Shown: one piece after another, positions 1,185-63,735 of the stretch
Numbering within the stretch: position 1 is the first letter of the stretch
How the letters are laid out: every line of letters begins with the position of its first letter
Assembly: GCA_001661515.1 (NCBI GenBank)
Contig: LUVW01000023.1
Coordinates: 659,551 to 723,550 of the forward strand
Length of the DNA: 64,000 nt
Direction of reading: 5' to 3'
Source: Capniomyces stellatus
Lineage: Eukaryota > Kickxellomycota > Harpellomycetes > Harpellales > Legeriomycetaceae
Notes under the pieces: model-generated
Told to the model about the DNA's origin: nothing
Database searches by the model: none
What the model saw: only the letters and a program-made list of their open reading frames with translations
Translations under genes and position numbers: made by a program

Positions 1185-4072
1185 TTAATCGTCAGCCAAC
1201 CAAGGATTGTCAAAATTGACGGGCAATGATGCTAACGGACTTTTGTTGGAATTAGGACGATGGTCTGCGACTTTGGTGGAGGAAGGATTTGGCAGCAGCT
1301 GGTCAGACTCAGCGCCATTATTTTTAGCAACACTCTGTTCGGTGGTATTCTGTTCAGAGTTGAGGGGATTAATCGGCAATAACTCGACTTCTTTCGAATT
1401 GATTACTTTCGAGTTGATTTCTTTCGAGTTGACATTTACTTGGGTTTCTTTTATCTCCAGGTGTTGAAGATCCAAGCGAGATTCACCAGCCTTGTTAGCA
1501 TTAACGTGGAAATCAGGCAAAGGATTGGTGGGCTGGACTTCAGGGGTTGTGGATGTTATAGGGGGGGTGGCGTCTGGTGTTCTGGAGGAGTTGGGGGATT
1601 TGGGTTTGTTGAGCAAATGTTGAAAGTAAAACTCGGACCAAAGCTGCAAGACATTGGACTCGGGATGTAAAACATGGGTTTCGGGACTGTTTATGTATCT
1701 GGGGTTCAAGAAACTGGACCTGTTGTTGTCAATGTGGCGCCACAAACTCGGTGTTCTTTCATTCAGCCGTAGAGCAACGCGTTCGCTCATACAATCGCCC
1801 AAAAAGGTGCCAAACCGGCAACTGGACAAATGCTTGCCCAACTCGACCAAAAAGTTGATGTTGAACTCAAAGTGGCAAGGGTTCTGGCGGAATATCTGGT
1901 AGACACAGTCGAGAAACTGGGAAAAAACTGGGCACGATTCGTTGTTTGGGTCTGGGTTGGACAGAAACCGGGACTTGTTTGCGTATGATCTGTTTTCCAG
2001 GGCAAAATTCGCGTTTGTGACGTCTGCATCGCCTAGCAGAACCGGTGACTCTCTGAACGCCGCAGTGATCCGCGACTGAACACCCCTGAACGTCCTTGAC
2101 GCAAACCGACCTAGAAGCGCGCTGCCCTGCGTCAGGTCAAACGGCATGCCCTCACTATTGCTGCTACTGGCTCTGCTGGTCTCTACACCAGGTCCCGAGC
2201 CTTCAGACCAGCCCACCGCAGCCGCAGAGTTGGTTCTAGCGTCGGGGCCCGAGTCTTTGACACGGCCGGTTCTTTTCGGGCTTGGACTGGCTCCAGTTGG
2301 CTGCAGGACGGGGCTGCTGATGTCGTTATTTGCGACGGTGAATCGCGACTCTACACCCAGAAACGCGTTTCGTTTGCTGAACTGGTGCCCAAACGACATC
2401 CACTCCTTCTCTACCAGCACCTTGAACCCATCGATCGTTCTGTAGTACGGATCCAAACACAGCTGCGCCAAACTCGTCAACTGCGCCGTTCTGTCCCAGC
2501 CGTCCGAGCAATGAACCAGCACGTGTTCTCCCCGCTCAACACACCCCACGACCTGCCCTGCCCCCTCAACTATGTTTGCCAAGTGCCGCAGCCAGTCGTT
2601 CTGCGCGCTTTTCACCTTGCTTGACGCTATGCTGCCTCCGCTAAACACCTCGCACACCGCCTCCAGAACCTTGTTTGCCGACGCCCTCATCACGTGGATG
2701 TTGTCGATTCCCAAGTACAACTTCCGGCTGCCCTTGTAATGGTCCATATTTTCTGACCCTGCCCCCACTGCCCGGTTCGCCACCGCGTTTGTTGTCGGCC
2801 TCGCATCCACTATCACGTGTGTCGTCTTTGCCCTGTCGCCTATCCCAACTCCAAATATCGACTCCACCAGCTTTTCGTCCTGTATCGATCGCGCCTGCTT
2901 CAGCCCTACCAACGGCTGACTCGACCTCGATATCGTTGTCCCATTGCTTCTATGGTAGTAGCACAGCACTGGCAGCCGCCGCTTGCTTCTGTACTTTGAC
3001 GCATGCACTATTGTCGTGTCGCTTATGTTGCTTGGAACCGCAAGAATCGATGGATAAGTCTCGCATATATCAAATCCCTTGTTTATCAACGTTATTCTCC
3101 ACCGCTTAGACTCGTCCATCGTTACCCCCATTCGCTCAAACTCCTTTACAATGTCGTAGCTGTCCCACCCCACAACCAACTCATCTTCCCTGTTATCAAA
3201 CGCATACAGCTCCTCAATCGACTCTATTCATCCATCCAATCACTTTCTTACTTTCTCTACCCATCTCTTCCTTAATTTTCTTCACATAAACTATCATTTC
3301 ATCTCATTTCTATTCTTTTATCACTCTAACCCCCCCCCCCCCCCCCCCCCCCTTTCNCCCCCCCCCCCCCCCACCACATCATTTCTACACCTTTATAGTT
3401 ACTATTTACCTTTGCAGCTCTGGTGCTTGATTGTCCAAAACACATCGTGTAAATCCTTTATACTCGCACAATACAGGCTTAAAAAATCATAATCATACGT
3501 TCTAATCTCAATCAGCCCATTTCGTTCCCAATCAATATCCCATTCATCAACCGAACTTCTTTCTTTTGCCTTTTCCGCTTTAAAATCACTATTCATGCCT
3601 TTTCTTATTTCCACTCTATCTATTGCCAACTCTGTTTGCGCCTCTCTCACTCTTGGTGGCGGTCTCCGCAGCACCGCCGAGTGTATCATTGAATACGGTA
3701 GCTATTTTCAATATTCAAGTTGCCCAAAGTCATTTTCTTTTTGTTCCCGTCTACCTTTTGTTTTTATATTTACTTGTATTCTCTCTTTTGAATTGCAAAC
3801 TTACCCATTCTTGTTCCGAGTTATCATCAAATATCATGTGATTTGTTGTCAAATGCAGAACCACATTCTTTTGGCTACTATTTCGAGTTATACGCGCCTT
3901 GTCTACCTTTTTACAAATTAACAATTTCCAACTTTTTATTTCATTTATTACCTCTCTCTCTTTCTCCCCTCCCCTCCTTTCACTACATTTTTCGCATTTC
4001 TCTATATTCTCCACATTTCTCTTTATACTATTCGATTTTGCTCCCTACCTTTGCTATCTTTATATAATCCAT
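1185..4072 (-). CDS. YMR1: Myotubularin-family phosphoinositide 3-phosphatase, four exons
   Basis: Spliced model: exons 4072-4049, 3906-3805, 3701-3410 and 3223-1185, all in phase, 818 residues. The start MDYIKIAK resembles the S. cerevisiae Ymr1 N-terminus and fixes the tiny first exon. A PH-GRAM domain follows (LHLTTNHMIF, then LPYSMIHS across a splice). The catalytic CX5R motif is HCSDGWDRT, with Cys378 and Arg384. The enzyme removes the 3-phosphate of PI3P and PI(3,5)P2 on endosomes. About 140 low-complexity Ser/Gly/Pro-rich residues (roughly 429-568) interrupt the phosphatase domain between FGHQFSKR and the conserved CPVFSQFLDCVYQI. The C-terminal tail carries three NSKxx repeats and looks disordered. 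Intron 3 contains a poly-C run with an undetermined base. Introns use GTAGGG, GTAAGT and GTAAAT donors. Confidence 0.92.
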
Positions 4073-5528: not shown

Positions 5529-8437
5529 CACAGAAAACAGAGCTTTTTATAACGTAATGTATGATTTGCAAAACCAAGCAAACCAAGTGACTAGGTGTAA
5601 TTCAAGTTGGTCTATCGTACCCTTGTATTATTTTTTAATATAACGATTGACTGGCGTTCCGACATTTATATATATATAGTTGTTTTTTCTTTGGACTGTG
5701 TTGACTATGATAGATAAAAAAAACTATTGCTATCATTTTTTTTCTTTCTGTTTGATTTTGGTTTTTTTTTTTTGACTCTGTTGAATTTTTGGCTATGCAC
5801 ATTTCAGAAACCTCAGTATGGCGTCAATAGGCTTAGTGGTGTAAATCTTGTGGATACACGTTTGTTGATGATATTGGCTAAGAGTTATATCAACGCAACG
5901 TGGTTTGATTTTATAAAAAGACTAGCTCACACCAAACACATACTCACACATTAGGCGATGTTATTATAGCAAGAAGCTGGTGAATAAATGTATCGTAGAA
6001 AGGGCATTCTGTGTAATGCAACCAACACTTGGCACAAATAATACCAAACTAACAAAAAAAAATTGTGTCAAGATTTCCGTTTTCTCGAGCGAGGCTTTTT
6101 TTTACCATAGCATATTTCAGCCGAAACTATTGAAAGTCGCAGTCATTTTGTTATTATTAAAAGAAATTGACATCGCAGCTACCAAACTAGTAAAACTTTG
6201 AACTGCAGCATATTCAGTATTAGTGAATATTGAGCAAAAAAGGAAATTCTTGCAAACTTTTACAAACTTTTACAAACACCTTATATCAAGCGTTCTTATT
6301 TATAAGGTTTCTTGGTTTTTGGCAAACGGGATTTTTTGCCAACACAAAATTCCCAAACCATTGATAAAATTGTTCTTTTCTCAATCTTAATCAAGAAAAA
6401 AATTGGCACTATTTGTAACAATACCAAGAACGAGTGAATAAATTGAAAAGCAAAGCAAAATGCATTTTATTCGTTTAAAACCAAGAATCTACCAAATCAT
6501 TCGCTGTCTTTTTATTTGGAAGAAAGTAGTGTTAGTAACCAAAAGTAAAACCATTGGCTCTTGGCAACCAAATGACTAGAGCAAGATGGTAGTATATTAG
6601 CTTTTTCCCCCTCTTTTTCCCTCTTTTTTATTCTTTGTTGTTGTGTTTGTTTATCAAGAAAAGTATCGACTATAGGAGCAGTTAGTTACTCAGATGGCTA
6701 GCAGAAAAATAAAGATCAAAGAGTTGTTGTGGAGCAAAAAAGTGCCGAGAACTGTGATGCTAAAGAAAAGATGTAAAAATACTGCCTAGTTAGAACGTTT
6801 GATATTTTTATTGCTCAGCTTGGCACATTAGCTAAATATATGCAGGGGGTTGTGTGTTTTGCCTAGTTAATCAAGCATGCTGCCAACAAAGTCCATAGCC
6901 CATATGGCGGCTAAGATCACTTTACTCTATACATAACATTATGTAGAGTGTAAGTCTAGTGCTAAGCAGGAAAGAGTTTAAAAAAAACATATTTTTGTTG
7001 AGCGGGGGGATATCAACAAGACTGTGACTATTCGTGATGACATAGCTAAAAAAAGTATTCCAGTATAGCAATAAAGATGGGTTGGTCGAGTGAGAACTTT
7101 TCTTTTTTAAATAAAAAAGTAAAGAAATAAAAGGAAATTGTGTTCACCAGATATTAATTGGCGAATAGAAGCAGAGGAGTTGAAGGTCAAACAATGCCCA
7201 TATACGAATTTGGAGGTTTTAGTGTCATCTCATTTCATTAAATAAACTATGGCGTGCCCGTATAACCAAAGTTTTGGTATGCTGATATGATGGAAATAAA
7301 TTATAGTTGTTCGAGTGCTTCTCTTTTATTTATTATTATCATTATTTTTTATTGCTTTTGTAGGTTTAAAACGCATGTCGAGTTGTTGAAAGCTAGTTTG
7401 AATTAGAAGGAATAAAAAATGATTCGAGAGGATTTTCCAACTGATAGTGTCGAAAATTGAGGCGAATAGAACGTAAAAACAAGGAAAATAACGGTTTAAT
7501 AATTGTAACAAAAGAGGAAAAAAAACATTGCAAAAGCAAAGAAATTACAAATGTAATTGTGTAACGTGTGTAAAAAGGAAGAAAAAGGCAGTTTCAAAGT
7601 TTTGAATTATGAAGTGAAAATTTATAATTCAATAGAAAATTTGTTGATGGGTTTGCTTGAAAAATAAGCTGTTTTAGTCGACCTAAGTGGAGAGAAATTA
7701 GAGCTTAGAAACTTTCAAATTACACAACAGAAAAAGAAAAACGAGACAAGTTCACATACTTTGGAAGCGATATAAATCAGCTTAACTATACAATAGGCAA
7801 GCGAGGAAGCGAGAGTCGACATTTATTCTTTAAAAAGTCCAAACAGCTGACACAGCATAAATATAAAGCATATAAAATAAAATAAATAGAAGGCAGGAGC
7901 AGAGTTGATAGCTTTTGTTAGTGTATAATTAAACATATAGATTATATTTACATTTCCGATAAAGCAGTATACTTTCCATTTAAACATTCTTGTAAATATC
8001 ATTCGTCGACTTGTTAAAAGAGAATAGAGATATACTGTTAGTATTGGACATAGAAGATACATTTGCCTGTCATTGCTTTTTCTTTTCTTCCACTTTTTTT
8101 TGGTATTAGAAAGGTATACGAGCAATTCAAACGCCTGTACTAGTAGAGACGGTGTAGAGAGTTTTTATTTTATTAGCGCGGTTGAGAAATAGGCCCGAAA
8201 CTTGAAATTTGAAGCTTAGAATTTGGAGCTTGGAGCTTGAAGAATAGGCTGTAAAGGAAACTGTTGAACGGGGACTATCACGAAACAACACCGGGAGAGT
8301 AGTATATAAATGTAAATAGTTTTACAAGAGTAACTTGGAGTCAAACATCAAACGAATAGATTGAAAAGGAATACAGGTCTTTATTATATATACATAATTT
8401 TTTTTAAAAAAAGGAGAGCTAAAATAAATCGGCAAGC
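5529..8437. other. Intergenic, 2.9 kb, no gene recognised
   Basis: Between tRNA-Glu and the C2-domain gene. AT-rich with T-runs near 5,740 and A/G-rich from about 7,000 towards the C2-domain start. I find no open frame with domain character, no tRNA-like arms and no complete snoRNA box pair. It presumably holds the promoter and 5' leader of the downstream + strand gene. Confidence 0.5.
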
Positions 8438-10630
8438 ATGAGTTCAGTGAAAGACAAGTACGAGGGAAAGCTGGAAGCGTTTGTGATTCAGGGGCGTAAT
8501 TTGCCAGTCACAGACAGGTTTAGCAAGAAGGAGTCGCTTGTGGAATTGACGGTGGATACGTTGATTAAAAAGACACAAGTTGATCGTAGAGGAGGCAGTA
8601 CACCAAGATGGAATGACAGATTGACGTTTACAATAACAGGGTTGGGAAAAAACTCGATGCTGATAAAGATACTGGAGTCAGGGAAGGCGCACTCAGATTC
8701 GATTTGTTCTGGGATTATAGATTTGAGAAAGATATACGAGGAGGAGGAGCTGGACGCATGGTTCCCGCTGACAAAGAAGGGCAAGCCGGCGGGTTCGATT
8801 TACATTGAATTTACGTTTACACCAAAGAGCGGGAGAAAAAAGGCTAGCAAAGTGCAGCAGCTTAACGATTTGAAAATAGTACCAACATTAGCACCACCAA
8901 CGATCAGGAACACATCGACAGTTGCATTTGCGTCAGCGCCGCCAAGTAGTTTGGCGAGCTTAAAGGTCCAGGCAGAGCAAAAAACAAAAGTGAACACAAT
9001 AAGAAGCGATCGCAGATACAGTTCGATTCCGCAAGTATCGTCAGAAACAATCACGTTATCAAGCCAGACAGATTTTTCTTCGCAGTACGCGCTGGCAAAT
9101 GGAAAAAAGCCATTGCCACAAAAGCCAGAGTACTCGGCAATAAGCCAAGGAGGATCGTCAAACGAAACGTATGTGTACAGCGGCGGGCCGAGTATTTATG
9201 CGGACAGTAGCTATAGCAATATACAAATCCAAAATCAGAATCAGAATCAGAATCAGAATCAGAATCAGAATCAGAACCAAAATCAGAATCAGAATCAGAA
9301 CCAAAATCAGAACCAAAATCAATATCAGGTTCAGTTCCAATCGACATCCAGTTATGACAACAACCAAGTCTTTGTTGACGAAAATAGATACAGTACTTAT
9401 GGGCAATATTCGACAATTAATAGGCGGAGAAGCGTGGGGAGCGAGCCAGATCAGCTGTACCACCAAAACATGAATGGAATACACAATGGACGAAACGACT
9501 ATTTGGATATAGTAGATTCATTCCACAACAGAATGCAAATAAACGAACCGCAATTTAGCGACGAACAAGCGCGGATTCAGTTACAGTACCAAAACCAGCT
9601 TCAGGGTGGCCAACTTTACGGATACGGAGATGCAGATCCACACGGGTATGGCCAGCAAATAGACGTAAACAACCAGACGATGTATGGGCTAAACGGACAG
9701 CAGATGTATGGGTACAACGACGCAGGTTTCCAATATGAAGATTTCAGTCCACCGAAATTTTCAAGAAAAAGTTTAAAGCGACAAAATCGGTACGTGGACA
9801 ACCAACAGAGTTTTGATACAGATGTAGATGCAGATGTGGGAGTAGGAGTAGGAGTGGGTGTGGGGGTGGGGGTGGGGGTGGATCCAGAACATCAGCTATA
9901 CCAACACTCAGTAGGACAACAACTACAACAACAACTACAACAACAGCAGATCCAGTACCAGCAGATTGTGAATAACCATCATGATGGCCTATTTGAAAGA
10001 GACTTTGTACAAATACAAACATCAGTTGAAACTCCAACTCATAGACAAAATCAGTTTTCCAACGAATACACCAACATCAACAACATCAACAACGCCCCGC
10101 AACGGCCTCTACCCAAAACCCCCAACCAAGGACCTCAACTGGAAACCATCGAGTATTCTGGGCCTGGATTTAGTGGATTACCTGTAGATAACAGAAACTA
10201 CAATTTGACAACTCTAATCCAAAACCAAAACCAAAACCAAATCCAAAACCAAATCCAAAATCAGTACCTTGGTATTGGCAATAGTGATGTCGAGTTTAGA
10301 ACCGATTACAACAATCCAAACATTCCTAATCAACCACCAACAACCTCACTAAGAGCAAACTACGAACCATCAGCTCCCCCTTTACTCATTCTCAACCAGT
10401 CCCCCAAAGTCCTCCAGTCAAAACCACTGGATTCCGCCTATTACTCCGGGTCTGAGCTAAATTGCAACTCTAACGCCCGCAACTCTGGTTACATCAACAA
10501 CACAAGCTATGACTCCGTTGACTATTCCAGCAACAATCCCTTTGAATCCCACAGCCCACACAACCAACAATTTACTTATTACTCTTCTAGAAATCATCCC
10601 ACTGTGAATAGCCAATATTACCATAACTAG
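8438..10630 (+). CDS. INN1: C2-domain cytokinesis protein, Inn1/Fic1-like
   Basis: A single-exon 730-residue protein. Residues ~8-130 form a C2 domain (GKLEAFVIQGRNLP, then STPRWNDRLTF, then GSIYIEFTFTP). The remainder is long, Gln/Asn-rich and disordered. Two proline motifs, KKPLPQKPE near residue 223 and RPLPKTP near 556, are of the PxxP type bound by SH3 domains. That layout, an N-terminal C2 plus a PxxP-bearing tail, is the one of yeast Inn1 and fission yeast Fic1, which link the contractile ring to septum synthesis through Hof1/Cdc15 and Cyk3. Most acidic calcium-ligand positions seem absent, as in Inn1. The tail holds QN-dipeptide (9227-9323 and 10218-10262) and VG-dipeptide (9834-9881) repeats, making it longer than Inn1 (~400 residues). 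Orthology is inferred from architecture. Confidence 0.75.
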   Translation: MSSVKDKYEGKLEAFVIQGRNLPVTDRFSKKESLVELTVDTLIKKTQVDRRGGSTPRWNDRLTFTITGLGKNSMLIKILESGKAHSDSICSGIIDLRKIYEEEELDAWFPLTKKGKPAGSIYIEFTFTPKSGRKKASKVQQLNDLKIVPTLAPPTIRNTSTVAFASAPPSSLASLKVQAEQKTKVNTIRSDRRYSSIPQVSSETITLSSQTDFSSQYALANGKKPLPQKPEYSAISQGGSSNETYVYSGGPSIYADSSYSNIQIQNQNQNQNQNQNQNQNQNQNQNQNQNQNQNQYQVQFQSTSSYDNNQVFVDENRYSTYGQYSTINRRRSVGSEPDQLYHQNMNGIHNGRNDYLDIVDSFHNRMQINEPQFSDEQARIQLQYQNQLQGGQLYGYGDADPHGYGQQIDVNNQTMYGLNGQQMYGYNDAGFQYEDFSPPKFSRKSLKRQNRYVDNQQSFDTDVDADVGVGVGVGVGVGVGVDPEHQLYQHSVGQQLQQQLQQQQIQYQQIVNNHHDGLFERDFVQIQTSVETPTHRQNQFSNEYTNINNINNAPQRPLPKTPNQGPQLETIEYSGPGFSGLPVDNRNYNLTTLIQNQNQNQIQNQIQNQYLGIGNSDVEFRTDYNNPNIPNQPPTTSLRANYEPSAPPLLILNQSPKVLQSKPLDSAYYSGSELNCNSNARNSGYINNTSYDSVDYSSNNPFESHSPHNQQFTYYSSRNHPTVNSQYYHN
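9227..9323 (+). repeat. Hexanucleotide array encoding Gln-Asn repeats
   Basis: Near-perfect CAGAAT/CAAAAT/CAGAAC units, about 15 copies, inside the C2-domain gene. Every unit stays in frame and reads Gln-Asn. Synonymous changes (CAG/CAA, AAT/AAC) show selection on or tolerance of the peptide. Confidence 0.95.
9834..9881 (+). repeat. Hexanucleotide array encoding Val-Gly repeats
   Basis: GTAGGA/GTGGGT/GTGGGG units in the C2-domain gene, read as about eight Val-Gly dipeptides. Confidence 0.9.
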
Positions 10631-17884: not shown

Positions 17885-19456
17885 TTTTTTTTTTATTCTT
17901 GCTCGTATGCTCTTGTTTAAATTTTGTCGTAAATACAAGGTAGAATGTACTTTAAATAAAAGGCAATTCACGGCTTGATGTTTTTGAGTTTGAATAATTC
18001 TAAACAGCTCGAATATATTTTGATAAAGTCGATTAAAAAAACTTGTTGAAGTTTGGCTTGCAACTTGATTAACAAAACAATTTTCGATACGGAATATCAA
18101 GGCAAATCAGGTTATTTGTTTTTTTTTGGATTTGGATCTGGATTTTAGTCTAGTTTGGTTTTTTCAATAGTAAAACCAACGAATCAATATAACCTGGAAA
18201 CAAAAAAAAACATGAAAGGACTCGGGGTGGACGAGTTAAACTTGGTTTTGACAGTTCCATAATATAAGGCTAAACTACTCAAATCCCCAAGATATTGCAG
18301 TGTAAACGGAATGACTTTTCCCTTCATAGGCGGAAAAAGTTAGAGAGGAGGGGCGAGGCAGCAGTATTTGATGTGGAATATGCAAAATTGTGCCGCTTTA
18401 TCATGTCTTTTTTTTAAAAAAAGTAGCAACATCATTTAAATGTCATGTGGGCGGGGGACGAGGGGGGGGGGATGCCACACCCACTTCCCCTCCATTCTGC
18501 ATTTTTAAAAGGGTTCTTTTTTAGAGTTGTAAAATCAGACGAGAAGCAAGTTTAACTTGACAATGATTTTTTATCAATCACGCTGAGATAAAATGTGATA
18601 TTTAAAGATTAAAAAAGTGTTGCAAAAAATAAAACATTCAAGCCCTTTTTATGAGCTAATTAGTAAAGTTGGTTTGACAATTCGGGAAAACTCAAATGCT
18701 GCTTGGTAATAATTAAACGTAGACAAATGGATTATTAGTCAAGTGACCTAAAATAAGTAAAAATTATAAAAAAGGTATAAAAGTATAAAAAGTATAAAAT
18801 AAGAGTGAAATAAGAGTTAAATAAGAAAAAAAAAATGAAAAAGTTTACCAATCGTTAAAACTTGCAAGTCTCTTGACCTTTATTTTGTTTTTTTCCCACT
18901 GGCAAACAAAGTTGTAATTAAGGTTTGCAGAGCATTAACACCTCAACAACTTAAAGCTTTATATATAAAAGAAGGAACTCGATTTGTCAATAGAAAAAGT
19001 AAGGCCTGGATAACAAGATTTCTTGGTTTTTTATTTCATTTTGACCTGTATTTCGTCTCAATCTCAAGTTCGAGGCTTTGTAAATTAAATTATGGGGGGG
19101 GGGAAGTTTTCTCTTATTTGTTTATTTGTAAAAAAAAACATGTATTTTCGAAAAGTAATTACTAAATTGGTTAATTAAAGTTTTAGTTTGGATTATTTGG
19201 TTAAAATTTGAAATAGTAAAATACAAAAACGGAACATTTCAAGCATTCAGACAACTTTAATAATATAAAACACCTTAATTTCGAGTCAAAAGCAGACCTG
19301 AATTGCGAATTAAAGAATACACATAATAATATCAAGTCCGCTAGTGGAATTACTATTGAGAATTAAAGAGAGTAGTATTGTATTGCTGGTTGGTTCAAGT
19401 AATTGTTGAATGAAAATTCGGTTGAAGCAAAGACGGAAATTTATTATAGCGGCGCA
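17885..19456. other. Intergenic between divergent EF-P and HOOK-CTL genes
   Basis: 1.6 kb divergent promoter region, AT-rich with scattered G-runs (18,460-18,470 and 19,094-19,103). A/T-rich with repeated TATAAAA-like words near 18,770-18,800. No gene seen. Confidence 0.5.
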
Positions 19457-20261
19457 ATGGAAGAGGTGGATGGATTGCAAATTGTCAATTCATTCCTACA
19501 ATGGGTAAGTAACACAGCAACCATGCATTGCCAAATTTGTAGAACCATAAAACAAGAATGTAACGGGGATTTGGCAAATTCCAAGCTTAAAGTATAATAA
19601 TGAAAAGAGCGAAGGATGTCTAATAACGTATTCTGACTGTGTAATAGGTTGAAGGTAGTATAGGGTATCATGTAGAGGGGTTTGAAGATTTGGAGGACGG
19701 GGCGATATATTATGAACTGGCACAGAAAGCGTAAGTGGCGTTGGAGAAGGTTTGCGGGTTATGTACAGAGATAGAGGAAATGCGAGTGAACAAAGTTGTT
19801 CATTTTTAATGTTATAAATTAAATAACGTTGTTTTTATGTTTTTTTATTTAAAAAATATATAGGGATAGGGATTGGTTTTCAAGCAAGGTCATTGATGAA
19901 ATGTTAAAGTCAAATAAACGAAATATAGCAGCTATAAACACAAAGCTACTGGAGCTACTGGAGAACTACTTTACAACGCATTTTAAGCGGAGAATAAGCG
20001 AGGAGGATATCCCTTTTAGCAAGAACGTGGGGCAAGAAGGATACATGGAGACAAGCGATGGCGACAACGAGCATGACAGGTGGGAGGATATATACAAGCT
20101 TGGAGTGTTGGTGTTGGCCATATCGCTGTTAGGGAAGAAGAGCTCGCTGGCAGTGCAGTTTGAGAAGCTAGACTCTGACACACAGGTTATATTGGAGCAA
20201 ATAATAGAAAAGGTATGTTGTAAATATTTTTGGTATAGCAAGGCTAATGCTGGATACCAGC

Positions 20262-20298
<37 letters not shown>

Positions 20299-21664
20299 AA
20301 AGTTGGAAGAGTAGGAATGAGTTGCATTGATGTGCGTACCAGTTTAAAGACATACTGACTTCAATAAAACTGTAGATTTGGATCAGGAGCAGAGACGTGA
20401 ATAGTGTTGGCAAATCGCAAAGCCCCAAGAAAAGGGGAAGGCGAAAAGCGCAAAGCAAGCGAGCGGAAAAGAGCTTTTCTGAAGGGAGACAGGGAACTAG
20501 CAGGCGTTTTGAGGGCAACGGATTTCCGAGCAGTGTCGAAGGCAGCGGAAACGGCATAAACGCAAGCAAAAACATACACGGGTTGGTTGAACGATTTAAG
20601 TCTGAAAGAGAAACGGACTCGTCAAGCATTTACAAAACAGGGGACTCTTCAAATGCAGAGTCGGTGTATGAGTCGATTATATTCAAAAGCAGTTCAAGGG
20701 CAGCAGGAAAGAGTAGTTCAGGGCTGGAGGAAAGCAGAATGGCCAACAATGGGTACAGTAACAGCAGCAACAGTAGCAACAGCAGCAGTAACAGCTATAA
20801 CAGTGGTGATGGTAGCAGTGATGGTAAGGGTGACGGTGACGGTAATGGTAGAGATTTTAGGAATAGCAGTTATAGGGATAGTCGGATAAAGAAAAGTAGT
20901 AGCATCAATGGTAGTGGAGGGTTTAGTAGGGGGTATGGATCAACAAACCAGAAAAACAGTTTGTTATCAGAGAATTCAAACAGTATGAGTATTATGAGCG
21001 AATCAAAAACTCAAAAGAAGCAGAACGGAGAAAATAGCCAGTTCCTAAGTCAGATGCTGGACTCGATGGTTGGGAATAATTCACGGTTGTCGGAAGAAAG
21101 TGCAATTTCGATAAGGAGCGAGGAGGAGGAGGAGGAGGAGATAGAAAACGATGATTCAAGTGGCGAGAGGTCAGATGAAGAGTGTTTGGGTGGTGGGAGT
21201 GATGTTAGGATTCAGTTGGACGGCAATGGTGATGGTGTTGATGGTGGTGATGGTGATGGTGATGGGGGCTGGAGTGAGATAGATTCACGGCAGTCGAGCT
21301 TTTCAGACTTGAATGATTTTGATGTAGAGAGTTTGACTGGTTTGCGGAGAATTAGTGATTCAAACACCAACAGAATCAAGGCCAAGAGCAACGACGAATT
21401 TTTCAAGTACTTGTTTATTCTGAACACATTTGCATTTTTGGTTATGGGTCTGTTTGAACTGGCTACAACCGAGGTAATAATTGGTTGTTAAGTACTATGC
21501 TATGTTTATATACGGACATAAAGATAAACCTTACTAATATGATTTTTGTTATGGGTTTATTTTAGGCTCCAGACAAAGGAAAAGGTCCAGGAAGAGACAA
21601 AGTGCTGTTTTTTGCATTTGTTGATGTTTTATGCAAGTTACTTTTTTTTTTTTTTTTTTTACTN

Positions 21665-21698
<34 letters not shown>

Positions 21699-23873
21699 TA
21701 TTTATTTATTTATTTTCTCTGCTTTTGCTTTTGAAACTCGTCTAGTTGATTGGTAGTAATCGAGTTTCCTTGTTTAATTAGGGCTGGGAGGTGCATTGAC
21801 AATATTGACGGCAGTTTTGGGGTACTTTTGGATAAAATTAGCTAAAAAGCAGACCAAGGTATGTGAAAAAGACGGTTATAACGCATCTACTCTGCTCAAT
21901 TATATAGGACCAATTGAAATCAAACTGGAGAATCTAGGTTGAAACTAAAGCAAGAGTGATGATAAATTAACTGTTATGTGCGAATTATGCCTATATGTTT
22001 GTGAATTAGCCGTTGGTGTGGTTGACCGTTATTTTTGTTCCAATTTCAAGCGTGTTTATTGCCTTGAACTCGCTGTACAGTTTGATTTTCCCAGCACAAA
22101 CAGACAAGATTGGACTATTCAATGGCTACTATTTGAGGTAATGCATAATAAATCATGCCAATATTATTGTTATTAGTGGAATGTTGGACTTTGTGGTAGC
22201 GAAAAATACTATATTTCGCCAACTGTTGTTATTGTCTTTTTGGTATTAACAGTTGTTTGATGAATTTGGGGGTGTTTAGAGATATCACAGTGTTGGTTGC
22301 TTCGTCTATGGTGGCAATTTCTAGCGTCGCTTATTTACTTTCGCAAAAAAGGTCGATTCACCAGGCAGCTTCGGTTCTTCAGGCAAGTGGAAAAACAAAT
22401 ATTGAAAAATGAATATGAAAAAACAAATGAAGAGTTGACGAAATTAAACAAATAATGTGTGTGTTTTTATTGGAGCACCCGAGTCTGGATTGAATCAGGT
22501 CAATTTTTCTCTTTGTTTATCAACTGATTGTTTTTTTTTCACTTTGGCGAATAGATCGCATCAGATGTTGTTAACGATATCAAGTCTTTGTTCGGACTGG
22601 CCTTGCTGCTGTTTTCGATGTTTATTTGCGTAACTTGTATATCACTAGTATTTATTTCACGGCTTGCAATCGAGGCATACCCACTAAAAGGTAATGATTA
22701 TTTATTTATTTATTTTTTTGGTAAATAATGCAAGTGTACTGGACTATAGTGTTTATAAATGTTCATGTATTCTTGGTTAATCTGTAATTAGGGTTTGGTT
22801 CGTTGCCAATTGGAATGTTGTTGTGGTTTGTGTTGTCGTACTTTTGGATTACTTGTGTCTTGCTGCAGTTCCATCGAGCTGTTTGTTCGTCGTTGGTTGG
22901 CCAGTGGTATTTCAACAGACATGATCCAAACGACTACCGGGCTGAGCTAGAGTTGGCCCAGGCGTCCATATACTTGGCCCTGACCAAGTGGATAGGATCA
23001 ATTTATTTGTCTGGGTTGGTGCTGATGACATCCAGTCTATTCTGGACAATCGATATGATTATAACTGTAAGTTGATTGGCTTGTCTATCTGTTTATTGGT
23101 CTATTTGTCCTGTTTGTCCATCTGTTTATTGACCTATTTATTCAATTGCTTTTCCTCTAGGTACTTTTATTGTTTGTCAGGCCGTTTGCCCCAATTCTTG
23201 CAACGATGTTTTACGTCTTCATTCCTAAAACATCGTCGTTACTGCACAGAGTCCCGATTGTTGCTCTAAGCAGATACACAATTGTGTACAGTGGGTTGTC
23301 AGGACTTCCATTCCACCCGTCCTATATAACTGTTGAAAAGCTGTTGAAAAAACATCACCTGTTGCTGCCCCCAACAAGTAAGTTGGTCTTGACTAAACAC
23401 TCAAGTTGTCAGTTTCTATCAGTATTTTATTGTTTCTTGTCTTATTCTCCTAATTCCTTTGTCTTTTTTTTTCTTCTTCTTTCTTTCTAGTTTTGGCCTT
23501 GCAGACGGTTTTCACCTCAGCTGCATCGTTGTTGGCTATTGTGTCATTGTACTTGGTGTACACTTATGTCCTGGCTGTTTTGGATTCGCCGTACGCCTAT
23601 GCCTTGGCAATATCCTTTTCAACTCTTCCATTTATTTCCATTCAATTTGTATTCCGAGTCTTTTTGCACACGTAAGTCTTTTTCTTTTTTTTTTTTCTTT
23701 CTTTCCAGCTCTTATTAGTTGATATTTTGTAATAGCTAATTTCTAACGATTTATTCGGTTTTTATGTATTGCTAAAATTTAGGGTGGATGCGTTGATTGT
23801 GTGCTACGCAGTTGATCTGCAATCCAATGCTTGCCACTCTGTCCGTATAGAACAAGCACTGGCCTTTATATAG
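19457..23873 (+). CDS. HOOK domain fused to choline-transporter-like (CTL/SLC44) membrane protein, 13 exons
   Basis: Spliced model: 19457-19504, 19648-19730, 19864-20212, 20376-21473, 21566-21632, 21782-21858, 22010-22137, 22253-22382, 22555-22690, 22792-23066, 23161-23377, 23491-23671, 23783-23873. Every junction keeps phase, giving 959 residues. Residues 1-160 resemble the HOOK N-terminal domain: LQIVNSFLQW, DRDWFSSKVIDEML, NTKLLELLENYFT, YKLGVLVLAISLL and LDSDTQVILEQIIEK. Residues ~161-500 are a Ser/Asn/Gly/acid-rich linker without heptads. From ~505 on come about ten membrane spans with CTL signatures: WITCVLLQFHRAV, LVGQWYF, ALTKWIGSIYLSG and a final VDALIVCYAVDLQSNACHS. HOOK domains bind dynein light intermediate chain and cargo; CTL proteins (yeast Pns1) are membrane carriers. 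Introns 5 and 8 have GC donors. Alternative: two genes, with CTL starting at 20739; that leaves 121 open codons unexplained. Confidence 0.75.
20376..20404 (+). promoter_or_regulatory. Cluster of alternative 3' splice sites after the HOOK exons
   Basis: The acceptor ending at 20375 (CTGTAG, preceded by the branch-like TACTGAC at 20353-20359) keeps the frame into the CTL part. Two further AG dinucleotides, ending at 20386 and 20392, would shift frame and reach a TAG at 20402-20404, giving a soluble HOOK protein of about 165 residues. Whether they are used is unknown. Confidence 0.4.
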
Positions 23874-24250
23874 AGCAAGAGCCATCATCATTTTTAATAT
23901 ATTGTCAAATATTTTTTTTCTCCACCTAACCAATTCACTTGTACATCAACAAAGACAGAGCAAAGGCGTTTTTACAGCGGTTCTGTATTTCACTTTGTTT
24001 AATTATTTTTATTTGTTGTTTCAAATCTGTCGATTTTATATTTAAAAGTTGTGTTGGGAAGTTTTAAAAGTAAAAAAAAAAAAAGAAATCGTTGTTAAAG
24101 GCTAAATATATTTTGGCGTATATCAAGTGAAACATTATGTTGAGTTTTAGTTATTTTATTTTTATTTTTTTGTTGCTATTATTGTTTTTATCAGATCTAA
24201 CAAGTATATCAGTGGTGTTTATTCACTTTGTTTTTAGGGGGGGGGGGGGT
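23874..24250. other. Convergent intergenic spacer with G-run
   Basis: 3'-to-3' spacer between the HOOK-CTL gene and the SFT2-like gene. T-rich, with a run of G ending at 24249, directly beside the SFT2-like stop codon. No gene seen. Confidence 0.55.
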
Positions 24251-24903
24251 TTAAATATCAAATATTGATCCGCAAGTTGACTGAATCATTTTTCTTCCAA
24301 ACGGAATGTAACTTGCAGCGTACCAGGTCAAAGCGAGGAACTGGATTATAACCATGATTAGACACAAAAGAGCAGATATTTTCTTGACTCCAATAATAAT
24401 GGTTAGGATCATTAGTACAAGATAGATTATTCCAGCAACCATCCGAACAGGTGCAAAGGACATTTTCAACTGTTTTTTAAATCCGACCAGGAAACCCAGG
24501 CTATTATAGTCGAGTATTTACAAAAATATTGAGAAGAAGAAGAAGAAGAAGGGATGAAATAATGTCGGAATAAGCAAACAAATAAGCAAACAAATAAGCA
24601 AGTGAATAGAGTTGTAACAAAGTTGAGGCAAGTATGATTAAAAGCACCTCTTTTTAAAACATCAATTTACCTGAAAATGGCAAGTAAATTGCCAAAAGTG
24701 TACATTATAGCAAATCCGGTGACGTTATAGCTGAAGAGTAAGATGGTTCCGAGAATACAAAGAATCATTCCACCACCTAAACAACCGGCAAAAGCGTAGA
24801 GTCTTTCTGTTCGAGACAAACCAAACATTCCTGGATCGGAACCCATTGGATCGCTTAAAGGGTTGTTTTCGCCCGTTTGTCTGACATTGAATGGCAAAGA
24901 CAT
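24251..24903 (-). CDS. SFT2: SFT2-family Golgi membrane protein, two exons
   Basis: Spliced model: 24903-24671 and 24500-24251, in phase, 160 residues. Four membrane spans fill the C-terminal two thirds. Family landmarks are RLYAFAGCLGGGMILCILG, then FAIMYTFGNLLAIF before the splice, and LVGFKKQLKMSFAPVR followed by TWYAASYIPFGRKM after it. Sft2 is a tetraspanning protein that acts with Got1 in retrograde traffic from endosome to Golgi. The cytosolic N-terminus is short, as usual. The intron has a GTAAAT donor and a TAG acceptor and interrupts a codon between spans 2 and 3. No other start fits; the first ATG gives the expected length (about 200 in yeast). Confidence 0.9.
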
Positions 24904-26220: not shown

Positions 26221-29200
26221 CTAGTTATGGATGTTTTGGTTAAAAGTGGAAGAACGAGGAAGTGGTTGGTGAATATGGCCAAAAGTCTGCTGGTTGTTCT
26301 GAACGTTCATACCAGGTTGTCTTTGTGGTAGTTGAGGCTGTTGAGGCTGTTGAGGCAGTTGTTGGAACTGGTGAGATTGTTGAAACTGATGGAACTGATG
26401 TTGTCTGGCACTGTGAGCCGGATTGATTGCAGGATACTGGGAAAACATTAGAATATCAGGGGAATGATTCTGCTGAATAGCTACTAAACCACCAGCACCG
26501 AGTTGGGATAAACTTTGGCTATGTTTTTGAGATTGAACCAATGGTTGAATGTTTGCACAACTGTTATTGTTATTGGTATTGAGTGGTTGGGTATAGTTGT
26601 GGTTGTTTGTAAAGTCATGAGCCATTGATTGAGAGTATAACTGATGTAAAGAAACTTGGGAATTGTACTGAGACGCTACTCTAGAACCAGACCCAGACCC
26701 AGACCCTAGACCTGACCCTAGGCCTGTATTGTGGATGTTGATAGGGAGGTTATTGTATTGGTAATGGGGATGGTTATAAGGAATATTGTTATTACTGTTG
26801 TTGTTGTTGTTGTTGTTGTTGTGGTGATAGTAAGGGGTATTGTTAGGGGTATTGTTAGAGGAAATATTTTGGGAGGGAGATGGTAGCCTTGAGGGGTTAG
26901 TTGAGGGGAAATTGGATATGAAGCCATCGCGTTGGAGTTTAGAGTAAATTCGTTTTCCATAAGTGGTTTGTCTGATGGAGGGCAAGATGGGTCTGATGAG
27001 ATTGACGAGGTCAGAGCGTTGAGTGGGGTCAGCGTGATCAAGGATGGTTTGAACGACATAATTGCCATATGAGTCGCGAATGAGTTTCTCAAGAGAGTGA
27101 GCGTCAAGGATGGGGGCAATGAGGGAAGCGCGAGTGGCAGGGTCAGCAAGTCGAATACACTTTTCCATAACGTTAGAGGAAAATTTCTGCATTGACAGAG
27201 CGCAGATGTGAGCAACAAACTGAGCAATCAGCAGGGCAGAAAAGTCGTGACGGTGCAGCCCCAGCACGTACTGGACCACATAGTTTCCAAACGGATCCTG
27301 GACCAGAAACAGGGCGTTACGCGTGACTATCTGCACCAGCTGGACCTTCTGCGGCTCAGTGGACAAGTCGATACACCGCTGGAACACACAACATCCGTGA
27401 CGGTGCGTGGCTACCTGCGTGCAGTTCTGCGCAACCGCGTCGTATATGAACTGCGAGCTTTCTGATGAGAGACGGTTGAGACATTTCTGGATCACGTGAT
27501 TTCCGTTCAAGTCGCGAATCAACATCACTACGCTGTGCTTGAGCGCGTCCGTCACCGCGTCAATCTGTTCCTGGCTGCCTAGAAAGTCGATCAGCCGTTG
27601 TACCGCCCGCGTCCCGTGCATGTTCAGCGATATCCCCACCAGGTCCGGTGCAATGTTTGCTATTACTGCAGACCGTTGCTGGTCGCTACAGTGTTCCAGG
27701 AACTTTTGGCACAAATAATTCCCAAATGGATCCACCATCAGACTCCCAAAATCCACGCTAATCTCCCTGAACAACATCTCCACATCCCTCACATCGCCCT
27801 CCTCCAGCTTCTTCTGCAAGAATCGACACCCGTGCTGGTCCTTACACGCTCCTAACAGTCCCCCTACCAACTCTTCCATTGTCTCGTACACGTACCTCCC
27901 TCCTACCCCTTCATTACTTTCACTATTATTATTACTATTACTATTATTATTGTTACTATTACTGTTACTGTTACTATTCTTAATACTCTTATTCTTGTTA
28001 TTGTTATTGCTGATATTCTGTACTAGGTCTTGATGTGGTTCCTGGTGTTGACTCCCTGTTTCTCCCGCCCCAAAAAACCCTCTTCTTGTTTGCTGCCCCT
28101 CAAACCCTGTTCTGCCTATTCCATATTCACTGCCTTGATTCGGTGAAACTTTGCCCGAATAAACCCTACTGTCTATCACACTCGACATGTACCCTCCACT
28201 ATCTCTATCTCTATCTCTATCTTTATCTCCATTTCCTTCTTCTATTCTTACTCCTGGTGCTGATGTTGATCCTGAAACTGATGTTGTGTTTGACAGTAAT
28301 CCCCCATTTACTCCTCCTACTCCTACTCCTACTCCTACTCCTACTCCTACTCCTACTCCTACTCCTACTCCTACTCCTACTCCTACTCCTACTCCTACTC
28401 CTACTCCTACTCCCCCATCAATCCTCACTCCTCCCGCTAATTCCATTCGTGAATTTCCCCCTCTGCCACTACCAATATTTTTGCCTTCAAAAAACAATCC
28501 TTCATCCTCCAGTAACCCTTGTGGCAACTGCGCTCCACTTTCACCTTCCATTCCCAGTCCCATACCCAGTCCCATCCCCAATCCTTTCCCCATTCCCATC
28601 CCCTTCCCTATTCCCATTCCCATTCCCATTCCCATTCCTTTCCCCATTCCCATTCCCATCCCCATATCCATATCCATATCCAGTCCTAATCCCAACCCCA
28701 GTCCTAGTCCCAATTCCATCTTTTCCTTCCTGTTGAATATCGCCGATCTGTTCGCTCTCAACTCTGATCCTGCTCTAAAGTCATACATGTTGTTTATCAA
28801 CGTCAAGTTTGTGTCGCACTTTGGCTCTGTGTTCACTTTGAACCCCAAGCTCTTGTTATTTGCTGTATTCATGTTTATAATGCTCATTCCCATGCTTGGA
28901 CTCCCATTATCTGCCCTTTCTCCCATCGATATCCTTGAAAATCCTCCCCACAACGCATCTATTTCCTTTTCCATCTCCTTTTCCATTTCCTTCTCCATTT
29001 CCTTCTCCCTTGGTCTGTCTTCTGCTCCTACTCCCAACTTCCCCATTCCCCCAAACTCTCCCCCCTCTTCTCCCTCTCTATTTCCCATCTTTTTCAAGTA
29101 TGCCTGCGACTCTGTCTTGCTCTTACTCATCCCTTTTCTTCCCCCAGTAAACTCCATTCTTTCTCTAAACGTCATCCTGTCCCCAACTACGCTTTTAATC

Positions 29201-29538
29201 CCCTCCCCGCTCTCCCTCCCTACCCTTATCTCCTCGTGCCCATCAATCCTCCCCATTTGCTCTCCAACTGCCATCGACCCCCCTCTAAAGCTATCTAAAT
29301 CAAACCCTAGCCCCATCGTGTTGCCTCTGCTCCCCAGTTCGCCTTTCAGCTCCTGCACATCTTCGCCATTTAATACCGAATCAGTCTTAACCGCCTTTGA
29401 CCCATTCTGCCTAATACCTTTCATCTCCTCTCCCCCAATCCTGCCTCCCCCCCTAAACTCTGTGCATGTATCTTTTGGCCCCAGAAACATCTCGTCGTAC
29501 TCGTCTACCGGCAACGACTTTTCCTCCTTTGTTCTCAT
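26221..29538 (-). CDS. Pumilio/PUF-family RNA-binding protein (Mpt5/Puf4 type)
   Basis: A single-exon 1,105-residue protein. Residues ~548-872 hold eight PUF repeats with cores, in order: HGCRFLQ, FGNYLCQ, HGTRAVQ, NGNHVIQ, HGCCVFQ, FGNYVVQ, FSSNVME and YGNYVVQ. By the PUF code these residues read an element starting UGUA: repeat 8 N/Q for U, repeat 7 S/E for G, repeat 6 N/Q for U, repeat 5 C/Q for A. PUF proteins repress or destabilise mRNAs through 3'-UTR sites and recruit Ccr4-Not. The N-terminal half is low complexity, with GL/GM and long GV dipeptide repeats and Asn/Ser runs; the C-terminus is Gln/Asn/His-rich. Repeat cores resemble Mpt5 and Puf4 more than Puf3, but I cannot choose between them without alignment. 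Confidence 0.9.
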   Translation of the reverse strand: MRTKEEKSLPVDEYDEMFLGPKDTCTEFRGGGRIGGEEMKGIRQNGSKAVKTDSVLNGEDVQELKGELGSRGNTMGLGFDLDSFRGGSMAVGEQMGRIDGHEEIRVGRESGEGIKSVVGDRMTFRERMEFTGGRKGMSKSKTESQAYLKKMGNREGEEGGEFGGMGKLGVGAEDRPREKEMEKEMEKEMEKEIDALWGGFSRISMGERADNGSPSMGMSIINMNTANNKSLGFKVNTEPKCDTNLTLINNMYDFRAGSELRANRSAIFNRKEKMELGLGLGLGLGLDMDMDMGMGMGMGKGMGMGMGMGIGKGMGMGKGLGMGLGMGLGMEGESGAQLPQGLLEDEGLFFEGKNIGSGRGGNSRMELAGGVRIDGGVGVGVGVGVGVGVGVGVGVGVGVGVGVGVGVGGVNGGLLSNTTSVSGSTSAPGVRIEEGNGDKDRDRDRDSGGYMSSVIDSRVYSGKVSPNQGSEYGIGRTGFEGQQTRRGFFGAGETGSQHQEPHQDLVQNISNNNNKNKSIKNSNSNSNSNNNNSNSNNNSESNEGVGGRYVYETMEELVGGLLGACKDQHGCRFLQKKLEEGDVRDVEMLFREISVDFGSLMVDPFGNYLCQKFLEHCSDQQRSAVIANIAPDLVGISLNMHGTRAVQRLIDFLGSQEQIDAVTDALKHSVVMLIRDLNGNHVIQKCLNRLSSESSQFIYDAVAQNCTQVATHRHGCCVFQRCIDLSTEPQKVQLVQIVTRNALFLVQDPFGNYVVQYVLGLHRHDFSALLIAQFVAHICALSMQKFSSNVMEKCIRLADPATRASLIAPILDAHSLEKLIRDSYGNYVVQTILDHADPTQRSDLVNLIRPILPSIRQTTYGKRIYSKLQRDGFISNFPSTNPSRLPSPSQNISSNNTPNNTPYYHHNNNNNNNNSNNNIPYNHPHYQYNNLPINIHNTGLGSGLGSGSGSGSRVASQYNSQVSLHQLYSQSMAHDFTNNHNYTQPLNTNNNNSCANIQPLVQSQKHSQSLSQLGAGGLVAIQQNHSPDILMFSQYPAINPAHSARQHQFHQFQQSHQFQQLPQQPQQPQLPQRQPGMNVQNNQQTFGHIHQPLPRSSTFNQNIHN
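28312..28410 (-). repeat. Hexanucleotide array encoding Gly-Val repeats
   Basis: CTACTC units on the + strand, about 15 copies, inside the PUF gene. On the coding strand they are GAGTAG units, read GGA-GTA as Gly-Val at about residues 375-408. Confidence 0.95.
28556..28700 (-). repeat. Degenerate hexanucleotide array encoding Gly-Met / Gly-Leu repeats
   Basis: CCCATT/CCCATC-type units on the + strand in the PUF gene, read as Gly-Met with Gly-Leu, Gly-Lys and Asp-Met variants. Less uniform than the Gly-Val array. Confidence 0.85.
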
Positions 29539-32500
29539 CTCTATCTAGTCTTCTTGTCTCTGTCTGTTGACTCAATCTTTGTCCACAATTCTATTCTCTG
29601 TTTTAATATACTACAAACTAAAATATTAAATAACTCCCTCTTTCTTTCTCTAGTTCTAGTTCTAATTATAAGAGGTAAATCTATCGCTTGTTTATTTTTT
29701 CTTTTACTACTTTTTGATTTTGATAAAGTATTCTTATGACCTCATTCGCAATTACTGTCAAGCCTGTTTTACTCCTCTTCTCTACTTTTTCTTTTTTTCT
29801 CTTTACTATCAAGTTGGTTGTTTTCTATATTGTTTTGCTTTTCTTGATGATTGATCGCTAAACAGTGTTATTGTTAATAGTACAATTGAGATTGAGTTTC
29901 TAAATGTTTTTTATGTTTAGGAGTAATGAGAGGAGCGATTTTTTCTTTCCTTCTTTGCCAAGTAGATTGAGAATTTTTCTTTAGTTTACTTTTTCTTTTT
30001 TTGTTTACTCGTTTACTTTACTTGTTCAAAGTCGATTTTTAGGCCAGTCATGGGGTGGATTGATATTACCAATTCTACTCTTTATCTTACTTTTCTTGAT
30101 CCTTCCTTTCTTGTTTATAAAGTTGATAAGGTCTAGTATTGCTTTTTTGTTGTCTTCCCTTTCTCTTTCTTATTGCCAAGTTTCGGTAGATAATAACCAA
30201 TTTAGCAGTAATTGCTGCTGTTTTACTTTTTTTTTTTTTTTCCTTTTTTTCTTCTTCTTGTTCTAGTCTTGTAGGTCTAACTAAAAAAAAAGATGTTGAA
30301 GCTGTGTTGTTTATATACAGATTGGTTGCCAAAATGATCTGTCGAGCAGGTGTATTATAGTTGTGTGTATATAATACAGAAGGTATAACTAAACCAAGAA
30401 ATAGTTATATAACCCAATTCCAAAATCCAAACTAAAAATAGTTACAATCGGTTTGGCGTCTATACCAATCTAAAGAAAATAAATAGAGTTTATAAGTATG
30501 GAATGGCTGGGCAAAATAAAAAAAGATATATATATATGTATATATATTGTGCTATACAGTTCTTGTTAACGCTGTCTTGACAGTAATCAGCAGTATTGAC
30601 TTACAAGTCCTAACTGTGTTAACAAATAAATGAGTATTTAGAAAAATGAAATGCTACTGATACACCACTTTTTTTTTTCAGGAAAATATTTTAATTTTAA
30701 TTTTTGTGTTCTATTTAAGCAAAGAAATTAATTAACTTTTTTCAAGATCAACATGTATAATGTATATTTACCTCAGTAACTATGAACATTATCAATCCAC
30801 TCACTCTTTTTTTTATCATTATCAAGCAACTACACTGTTAGCTCATTTATCTCGCATTCTTTCAATTTTTCCTTTCTTTTTTTCCTCTTTCAGTCTTCAT
30901 TGAAATGAACTCTAAAAACCAGTCAATTTAGTTATAAAACTGCAAATTTAATTGTCATGGCAATTAACATTGCTGTTAACTGACTGAAAAAAAAAAAGGT
31001 GCAATAGTAACGTAATAACACAAAAGGTTTGGTCTAAACCAAAATTCATTTGCTTTACATTGGACTCGAATAATAATCAGTCTCATTCTAATCTTATTCC
31101 TAAAACCTTGTGGCTTCCTTTTACTACTTTATATTTTTCATTTACTACTTTTTGCTATTTTTTTTTCTTTTTTTCTTTTTTTCTTTTTTTCTACCTTTCT
31201 GCTTTTTTTTTGGCTTTGTTAATTTGTTCCCAAATTTATAAACGTCAATTGCTTTTATTTCCCCCAAACCAATCACAGCTAGTTTTTAGTTGCCTTTTTT
31301 TTATCATCGTTTTAGTGGTATGAAAGACACTTTGTTCTCTATGACACGAGCACTTGGCCAAAACTTCTTGTCTTTTGTAATAGTTTTATGTTTACTCTTG
31401 CTCCTTTCAATTATCTATTTTTTATTTTATCACTTCTTTCTATATTTCTTTTCTCAACAAAAACTGACCATCTCAGTTCAACAGCACCATGACCAACGGA
31501 CCTTTTATTTCATACATAGAGCTCTACTACTGCTTTCCTTCTTCTCCCGCTTCTACTTTTATTATTTGCTCTTTTTTCCTTGCCTCCCCCCCCTCTCACT
31601 CATCTCTTTCTAATCACCCGCTTCGCAACATGCTAATTGGGTTGCATAATATGGTGTGTTTGGCATATATCACAATCTAATCATCTCACCATTCAACTCT
31701 TCATTTTTGCTCCTCCAAGACTTGATTATTTCAATAACCAATGTAATTCAAATCAAGAATTGTTTACACTATGTTTATTTCTACAATTCCATTTCAAAAA
31801 AGCTATGGTTGTCTAACAATCACAGGAAATTCTGTAAAGCTAATAACCTCACACTCTTTTCTTTCCCCATCTTTTTTTTTCTCTTCAACAGTTTTTATCA
31901 TTCATCTCCTTTTCCAATTGTTTTATTTCCCTCAACATTTGAATATTGTTTTGGTATTACTGCATTACAATCAAAACACTGTATACTACTCTTTACATCT
32001 CGTGAATAGAGATGCTTCGTTGCACGCAAACAGTCAGAATAATTTCTATATTTGCAACGCTGAGTATAAACCCTGTTCACAGCGCTTTTAATCCCGAAAT
32101 TATCCTTATAAATATAGCACTCGACTCTCCTGAGATTGCAAGGCGCTCAGGCTGTGATGTCATTAATTCGCACCAAAAAATAATTGCATACACCTCCCAA
32201 GTCACACGCATCTGATGTTTCAGGATTTGACTATATTATAGTATAAAACATTGCTACTAGACACGTTTCAACTTTTAGCCAATAATAATACAATATAACC
32301 ACGCAACAACAGTATTTCCATACTGTGGATTTCAACCAGCTAGCCAGCATATCATACCGTTTCCAACACGTACCAAACTCGCTCTTTGTATTAATCTTAT
32401 CTCGCCCAAACTCTGCAGAACCCTGTATACATGAACACTTGAAAAGTATAGACCGCTGATGAAAACCGTCAACACCTACAACTCTTATAATTACACTGTC

Positions 32501-62460: not shown

Positions 62461-63735
62461 TTTCTTTAACTTTCTCTTCTTTTTAATTCACTCGTCTTGT
62501 TCTTTCACTGTTTTTACTCCCAACAAGCATCCTTTCCTCTACCTCTATTCCTTCAATTTTTTACTACTCGCTTATTATCAAAGATATAAGCTGCTTTCCA
62601 TTAATTATACTTGTATATTCAATTCTAGTTTTGTTCTTGATTTGGTAACAGATAGTTGATGTTTCATTTGATTATTTGTGTTCCTATTTCAACTCTTCTT
62701 TTTTTTTAGTTGCTTTATTTATCTTTAATTTATTTTTTGAAATTAATAAATAAATCCAAAAAAACAAACCCTTTTTTATTTTTAACTCACTAATTTCCCT
62801 ACTCTTTTTTTGTTCTTTTCCTAATTTGACAACAGTTCCTTCAGACGTTTTTTTTTTTTGTTTTATCTAACTTTGCAAGCCTTCAAAATAATAATTTGTA
62901 AACTCAGTGAAACAAAAGCTAATCGTGCATATTGATCTTTTTCTTTCTTGCTTCAAGTTTGTATTGAATAAATAGCCTCGCTTTTCCCTAAGCTAATTCT
63001 ATCTCTCTTTTGACAAAAAACTAAAATTAACTGCTTTGATATACCACAGATATGTCTACCCACCCTTCCTTTGTCTAATTTATCACCTTGTTGCAACAAC
63101 CTCACAACCTTACGACCTCACAACTCTGGTGGTCTATTTCTTTTGCACCACTTAATTGTATTACCCTGTTATATATTACTAAATTGTTTTATTTCGGCCA
63201 ATGACAATCAGGACCGGGATAAACCCTATTTACTCGAGAATACTTTTCAGTACTGCACTATTCTGATTTGCATAATTTTTTTTTAAAGCTTTTGTAGGGT
63301 TCTTTTTTTTGTTCACAAATTCATCCTGTCCGTTTTTCATTTATATTTTCGTCTTGCTTTTAAATTGTACCAAAGTACAAGGTCGAACTTTTGCTTTTTG
63401 CTCAATCATTTAAAGCAAAGCATATTTATTTGCTTTTAGATTACTTACCACACCACTGTTAATTGAACTTGAGAAACAAAGAAAAATCGACAACTCGAAT
63501 AGTAAAAAAGTAATAATAATAAATACGCCGGTTTAAAAAGGGAGAGCAAACACCAAAGAAATAAAATAGGATTCAAGAGTAGAAAGCAAAACAACATTCA
63601 ATCTAACCATTAATCCATCCCAATTCATCCTTCCAACATAAAAGGATTTCGATCTTGAAAAAAAATCCTTGACAACAGAAGAATATAGCAATAGCGAGCG
63701 AATCGATAAATACTTGATCCAAAAAAAAGATAAAA
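62461..63735. other. Divergent intergenic region
   Basis: Shared upstream region of the ASH-like gene (-) and DPH3 (+). T/C-rich next to the ASH-like start and A-rich for the last 250 bases before DPH3. No gene seen. Confidence 0.55.

Follow-up and report, generated by a model that had tools for sequence, protein, structure and literature searches.

Does a single gene of Capniomyces stellatus join a HOOK domain to a choline-transporter-like (CTL/SLC44) membrane protein, and could such a protein contact dynein directly? Both were proposed in an initial annotation of the 64,000-nucleotide stretch analysed here (the window), which covers positions 659551-723550 of contig 16 in a genome of 24.5 Mb and 59 contigs. 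Judging from the DNA sequence, we consider it probable (about 0.65) that the locus is one gene, encoding a 959-residue membrane protein with a diverged HOOK domain at its N-terminus, a multi-span CTL/SLC44 domain and, between them, a long linker that is probably disordered.

If the gene is transcribed as modelled, a dynein-binding domain would form part of a multi-span CTL protein, and a HOOK domain would occur apart from the coiled coil usually present in activating adaptors. With such a protein one could test in a simple way whether anchoring in a membrane and clustering are able to stand in for the adaptor coiled coil, and it would link to dynein a family that is tied to Atg9 traffic in fission yeast.

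Exon structure and reading frame

The 13 exons of the initial annotation (19457-23873) join to 2,880 nt, i.e. 960 codons including the stop, in one frame of 959 residues without inner stops. The features are as follows:

Exon 1, 19457..19504, plus strand: HOOK residues 1-16, ending in ...FLQW
Exon 2, 19648..19730, plus strand: HOOK residues 17-43 and two bases of codon 44
Exon 3, 19864..20212, plus strand: putative remainder of the HOOK domain, up to residue 160; contains Q151, I158 and E144
Junction intron 3, 20213..20375, plus strand: strong donor AAG/GTATGT, CTGAC branch-like motif, low-scoring acceptor ACTGTAG
Exon 4, 20376..21473, plus strand: linker of ~340 residues (residues 161-500), after which the first hydrophobic span begins
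Exons 5-13, 21566..23873, plus strand: CTL/SLC44 membrane domain, with the stop codon at the end
Exon 5, 21566-21632, plus strand
Exon 6, 21782-21858, plus strand
Exon 7, 22010-22137, plus strand
Exon 8, 22253-22382, plus strand; alternative start at 22280
Exon 9, 22555-22690, plus strand
Exon 10, 22792-23066, plus strand
Exon 11, 23161-23377, plus strand
Exon 12, 23491-23671, plus strand
Exon 13, 23783-23873, plus strand

The introns are 92-172 nt long. Ten of the 12 are of the GT-AG type and the other two (21633-21781 and 22383-22554) are GC-AG, both with the donor GCAAGT.

The region 19300-23950 was parsed with intron 3 excluded from splice training and the exons of the fusion gene excluded from codon training. 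All six settings gave as best parse one fused gene joined precisely at 20212/20376, 40-46 bits over two-gene parses; this test of the junction is not fully independent, because the gene's 11 other introns were used in splice and noncoding training. Together, the joined frame and the parses support reading the HOOK exons, linker and CTL exons as a single fused gene, as initially proposed. The best unconstrained parse equalled the initial model except for exon 8, which may begin at 22280, a change that keeps the frame, shortens the exon by 27 nt and improves the score by 2.3 bits. A parse with unrestricted GC donors placed the junction at 20196/20387 (donor 20197) and kept the gene fused; that donor was judged spurious after the result was seen, and GC donors were then restricted to GCAAGT. 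Extra introns mined from the window for the acceptor matrix yielded four dubious candidates, which were dropped.

The fusion gene has a tail-to-tail neighbour at 24251-24517 on the minus strand, a Got1/Sft2-like Golgi transport gene (PF04178, 61.5 bits over this ORF); the window also contains a myotubularin-like phosphatase (PF06602, 448 bits) at 1188-3227, likewise on the minus strand. Long dipeptide runs (e.g. GV, NS, NQ and GM) occur in the long coding frames 26224-29544 (minus), 55324-62487 (minus) and 8423-10627 (plus), and one of these three frames is a Pumilio protein.

Coding signal of the linker

The in-frame TAG at 20373-20375 is present as claimed, as is the ATG-free and stop-free frame of 121 codons that follows it (20376-20738). 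This frame is coding-like, with a mean codon log-odds of 0.38 bits, although base composition accounts for part of this signal, since the remaining forward frames also score high (0.18 with two stops and 0.25 with nine stops). For reference, none of 1,200 noncoding window-frames exceeded 0.09 and 243 coding windows averaged 0.37; the scores had been trained on these same two sets. A clear frame preference is seen only in 20616-20738 (0.49 versus -0.09 and 0.12); in the 120 nt that open the linker (20376-20495) it is absent, the three forward frames scoring 0.37, 0.37 and 0.44. Intron 3 has a GC content of 0.30, which increases to 0.48 after it. At the dinucleotide make-up of 20376-20738, 121 stop-free codons arose in 325 of 20,000 simulations.

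Ser, Gly, Asn and charged residues are abundant in residues 161-500. A simple heptad count detected a coiled coil in none of 313 linker windows, versus 64 of 149 windows from part of the canonical Hook protein of the same genome.

The HOOK-CTL junction

The two splice sites of intron 3 differ in quality. Donor 20213 falls within the top 0.3% of the GTs in the window. Acceptor 20375 scores poorly with both of two small matrices (-1.5 and -0.6), and 58% of the AGs in the window score at least as high; where it reaches -0.6, the 14 training acceptors range from 4.4 to 10.8 and an alternative acceptor at 20342 reaches 2.7. Acceptor 20375 is the first AG downstream of the CTGAC motif, but this branch-site argument is weak, because CTRAY occurs in the last 60 nt of only six of the 12 introns. 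Acceptor 20342 is in frame, 33 nt upstream of the fusion acceptor, and reads FKDILTSIKL before the TAG at 20373-20375.

A rival reading has two adjacent genes. A HOOK-only gene would use acceptor 20342, continue as ...IIEKFKDILTSIKL and stop at 20373-20375 or end nearby, and a separate CTL gene would begin at ATG 20739 or in a short unseen upstream exon. Besides the acceptor scores, this reading is favoured by the in-frame stop directly before the linker and by the first 120 nt of the linker, which, lacking a frame preference, could be a purine-rich leader; gene modelling also often merges neighbouring genes in error. It would, however, deprive a stretch of 121 codons, with a score of 41.7 bits, of any start. 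The two-gene constraint in the parse had also excluded acceptor 20342, and this rival was therefore scored separately. With TAG 20373 as the end of the HOOK gene and ATG 20739 as the start of the CTL gene, it reached 216.6 versus 268.5 for the fusion, or 226.6 versus 273.5 with cheap gene ends, and thus lies 47-52 bits behind. A version in which the HOOK gene is read through into the intron fares worse (209.4 and 219.4).

The initial annotation had further held that the linker can be translated only by splicing from the HOOK exons. This is slightly overstated, as a 15-nt micro-exon (20317-20331) followed by a 44-nt intron also opens the linker frame. That model requires an intron shorter than any in the gene (44 nt versus 92-172 nt) and scores worse than the fusion (37.9 for the HOOK-only gene plus 208.0 for the CTL gene, versus 268.5). 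The only other start with fair splice sites in 20001-20375 is ATG 20045, which lies inside exon 3, and the GC content of 20343-20375 is intron-like (9 of 33 by hand count). Taking these points together, we regard two separate genes as unlikely.

Both acceptors might also be used. Since 20342 leads in frame to a TAG, the choice of acceptor could switch between a soluble HOOK protein of 170 residues (20342) and the membrane fusion (20375, which drops the stop). Exactly 11 codons, all in one frame and including a single TAG, separate the two acceptors, and the CTGAC motif between these sites suits the downstream one. On the other hand, the codon score of FKDILTSIKL is negative (-2.8 bits), AG pairs of this kind can arise by chance, and the evidence is confined to the sequence; alternative splicing of this type seems improbable to us. 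A single fused gene, in which splice 20212/20376 would be the one used in cells, remains the preferred reading.

Ancestry of the N-terminal domain

Identification of the N-terminal domain as HOOK could be upheld, although not by Pfam: HOOK_N gave no match to the domain, even at E up to 10. Elsewhere in the genome, HOOK_N has at least one match, a canonical Hook gene on contig C14 (83.8 bits; 92 bits to Hook3). The genome was searched family by family with single exons, so that all counts given here are lower bounds.

Comparison with this canonical Hook gene provides the first line of evidence. Both introns within the HOOK part are shared with it, at the identical aligned codon and in the same phase: intron 1 follows ...FLQW in the fusion gene and ...FIEW in the canonical gene (phase 0 in both), and intron 2 lies inside the codon preceding DRDWF and DPHWF, respectively (phase 2 in both). 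The two gene models were both read from sequence alone, and the columns were compared in a MAFFT alignment.

A home-made profile of the canonical Hook, Hook3 and Hook1 provides the second. It matched residues 13-101 with 19.3 bits, versus at most 8.7 bits in 2,000 shuffles, and hhalign gave a probability of 88% for a HOOK domain. When 332 sequences (330 ORFs of ≥ 60 aa from the window, the spliced domain and the fusion) were ranked, the spliced 160-aa domain came top with all three HOOK models. It scored the 19.3 bits of the joint profile against 5.8 for the best unrelated ORF, 15.7 against 6.0 with the genome's own Hook as sole model, and just 11.0 against 4.1 with an animal-only profile.

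For the HOOK fold (CH-like plus helix 8), exon 3 alone, folded from one sequence, reached a pLDDT of 51 and its best structural match was unrelated (E 2.1); a search of the HOOK part against solved structures returned a single unrelated chain (E 0.31). On the shared introns and the profiles, HOOK ancestry is well supported and we hold it to be very probable, the domain being a diverged relative of a Hook gene.

Matches to the FHIP family were observed at two places in the genome (C10:339988-341487 and C12:954891-956513, with 188 and 55 bits). Six-frame reading of the C12 match meets inner stops, which may reflect introns, and the genome may thus contain two FHIP-like genes.

The CTL/SLC44 membrane domain

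The C-terminal part is readily recognized. Pfam Choline_transpo (PF04515) matches residues 635-942 with 73 bits, versus a curated cut-off of 26.9, and covers profile positions 4-325 of 326; hydropathy peaks span residues 502-940, consistent with a multi-span membrane domain. A search of solved structures with the CTL part gave no match at E ≤ 1. Protein searches returned no match at E ≤ 0.01 for residues 505-959 (the 8,000 candidates with the most common words scored), none at E ≤ 1 for the last 260 residues (4,341 candidates) and none at E ≤ 10 for HOOK residues 1-165 (418 candidates); as the fusion protein itself was not among the results, these nulls say nothing on orthologues.

Fungal CTLs form two clades, Ctl1-like and Pns1-like (PMC3738441). 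CTL genes were found at two places in the genome, namely the window and contig C1. The C1 gene matches the solved Protein PNS1 with 204 bits, so that the window copy may be Ctl1-like by elimination. Ctl1 of S. pombe is reported to interact with Atg9 and, starting at the Golgi, to reach the site of autophagosome assembly, and both of its termini are predicted to be cytoplasmic (PMC3738441). Atg9 was also found in this genome, as were three chitin synthase matches at two places, the latter pointing to a fungus.

Potential contact with dynein

Binding of Hook3 to the dynein light intermediate chain (LIC) crucially involves Q147 and I154 (PMC6400558), and the mutant M140D does not bind LIC (PMC5841405). 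In the MAFFT alignment, Q147 corresponds to Q151, I154 to I158 and M140 to E144 of the fusion protein; these helix 8 assignments rest on MAFFT alone, because the profile and hhalign alignments span only about residues 11-101. On the side of the motor, LIC helix 1 binds through L444, F447, F448 and L451 (PMC5841405). The genome has at least one match to the dynein stalk domain of the heavy chain, and a LIC was matched on contig C7; eight of 14 prokaryote controls also matched, those being below the cut-off. By eye, a helix-1-like LxxFFxxL motif, SEVLSSFFQNLLDKK, was recognized in an ORF downstream of the matched LIC exons.

The initial annotation suggested that the carrier contacts dynein directly, with no adaptor, to move its own vesicle. 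The first half of this proposal is plausible, in that the kept Gln and Ile and the LIC motif would allow the HOOK domain to bind LIC. The Glu at the M140 position counts against it, and activation of the motor would likely need another factor.

The fusion gene could equally be real while its N-terminal domain has lost dynein binding and taken on another role, a reading that overlaps with our preferred one. The divergence of the domain beyond recognition by Pfam and the acidic residue where Hook3 tolerates no Asp (PMC5841405) point that way; the equivalents of Q147 and I154, kept at the correct spacing, and the codon score of exon 3 (0.36, as in other coding sequence) point the other way. We consider such a loss a serious possibility, at somewhat less than even odds.

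Returning to a fusion protein with an intact LIC contact, its N-terminus would lie on the cytosolic side, in line with the prediction for S. pombe Ctl1, and the HOOK domain of the membrane protein could recruit dynein there. The protein would thereby tether or concentrate dynein at the membrane, and dynactin engagement and activation might follow through clustering or a partner factor. A tether is more likely than a self-sufficient activator, because the linker has no coiled coil. The fullest version, in which a Hook-derived LIC-binding domain and a Ctl1-type CTL make a carrier able to attach its own vesicle to dynein, and tandem acceptors 33 nt apart switch between soluble and membrane-bound HOOK, is speculative and in our view rather doubtful.

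Comparison with known systems

No report of a HOOK-transporter fusion was found among the entries listed by searches of open-licence literature. The notion that HOOK domains occur only in separate soluble adaptors, on which the initial annotation relied, is wrong, as C. elegans ZYG-12 is described as a transmembrane HOOK protein (PMC10071310). KASH5 has an EF-hand domain, a coiled coil and a C-terminal transmembrane domain, and like ZYG-12 it is an integral membrane protein whose N-terminal domain binds dynein (PMC10071310), an arrangement that the predicted fusion would share. The single C-terminal span of KASH5 resides in the nuclear envelope, whereas the fusion would have a CTL domain with several spans and a linker that lacks a coiled coil. 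The membrane anchor of ZYG-12 is also a lone C-terminal span in the nuclear envelope.

With the Hook family (animal Hook1-3, fungal HookA/Hok1), the fusion shares the N-terminal HOOK domain and the equivalents of Q147 and I154, but not that of M140; unlike these proteins, it has neither the coiled coil nor the Hook C-terminal region, and carries a CTL membrane domain instead. With Pns1 and S. pombe Ctl1 it shares PF04515 over almost the whole profile, and differs by the added HOOK domain. Given ZYG-12, a membrane HOOK protein as such is not new. What would be new, on the strength of this one genome, is a HOOK domain fused to a multi-span CTL domain without a coiled coil between them.
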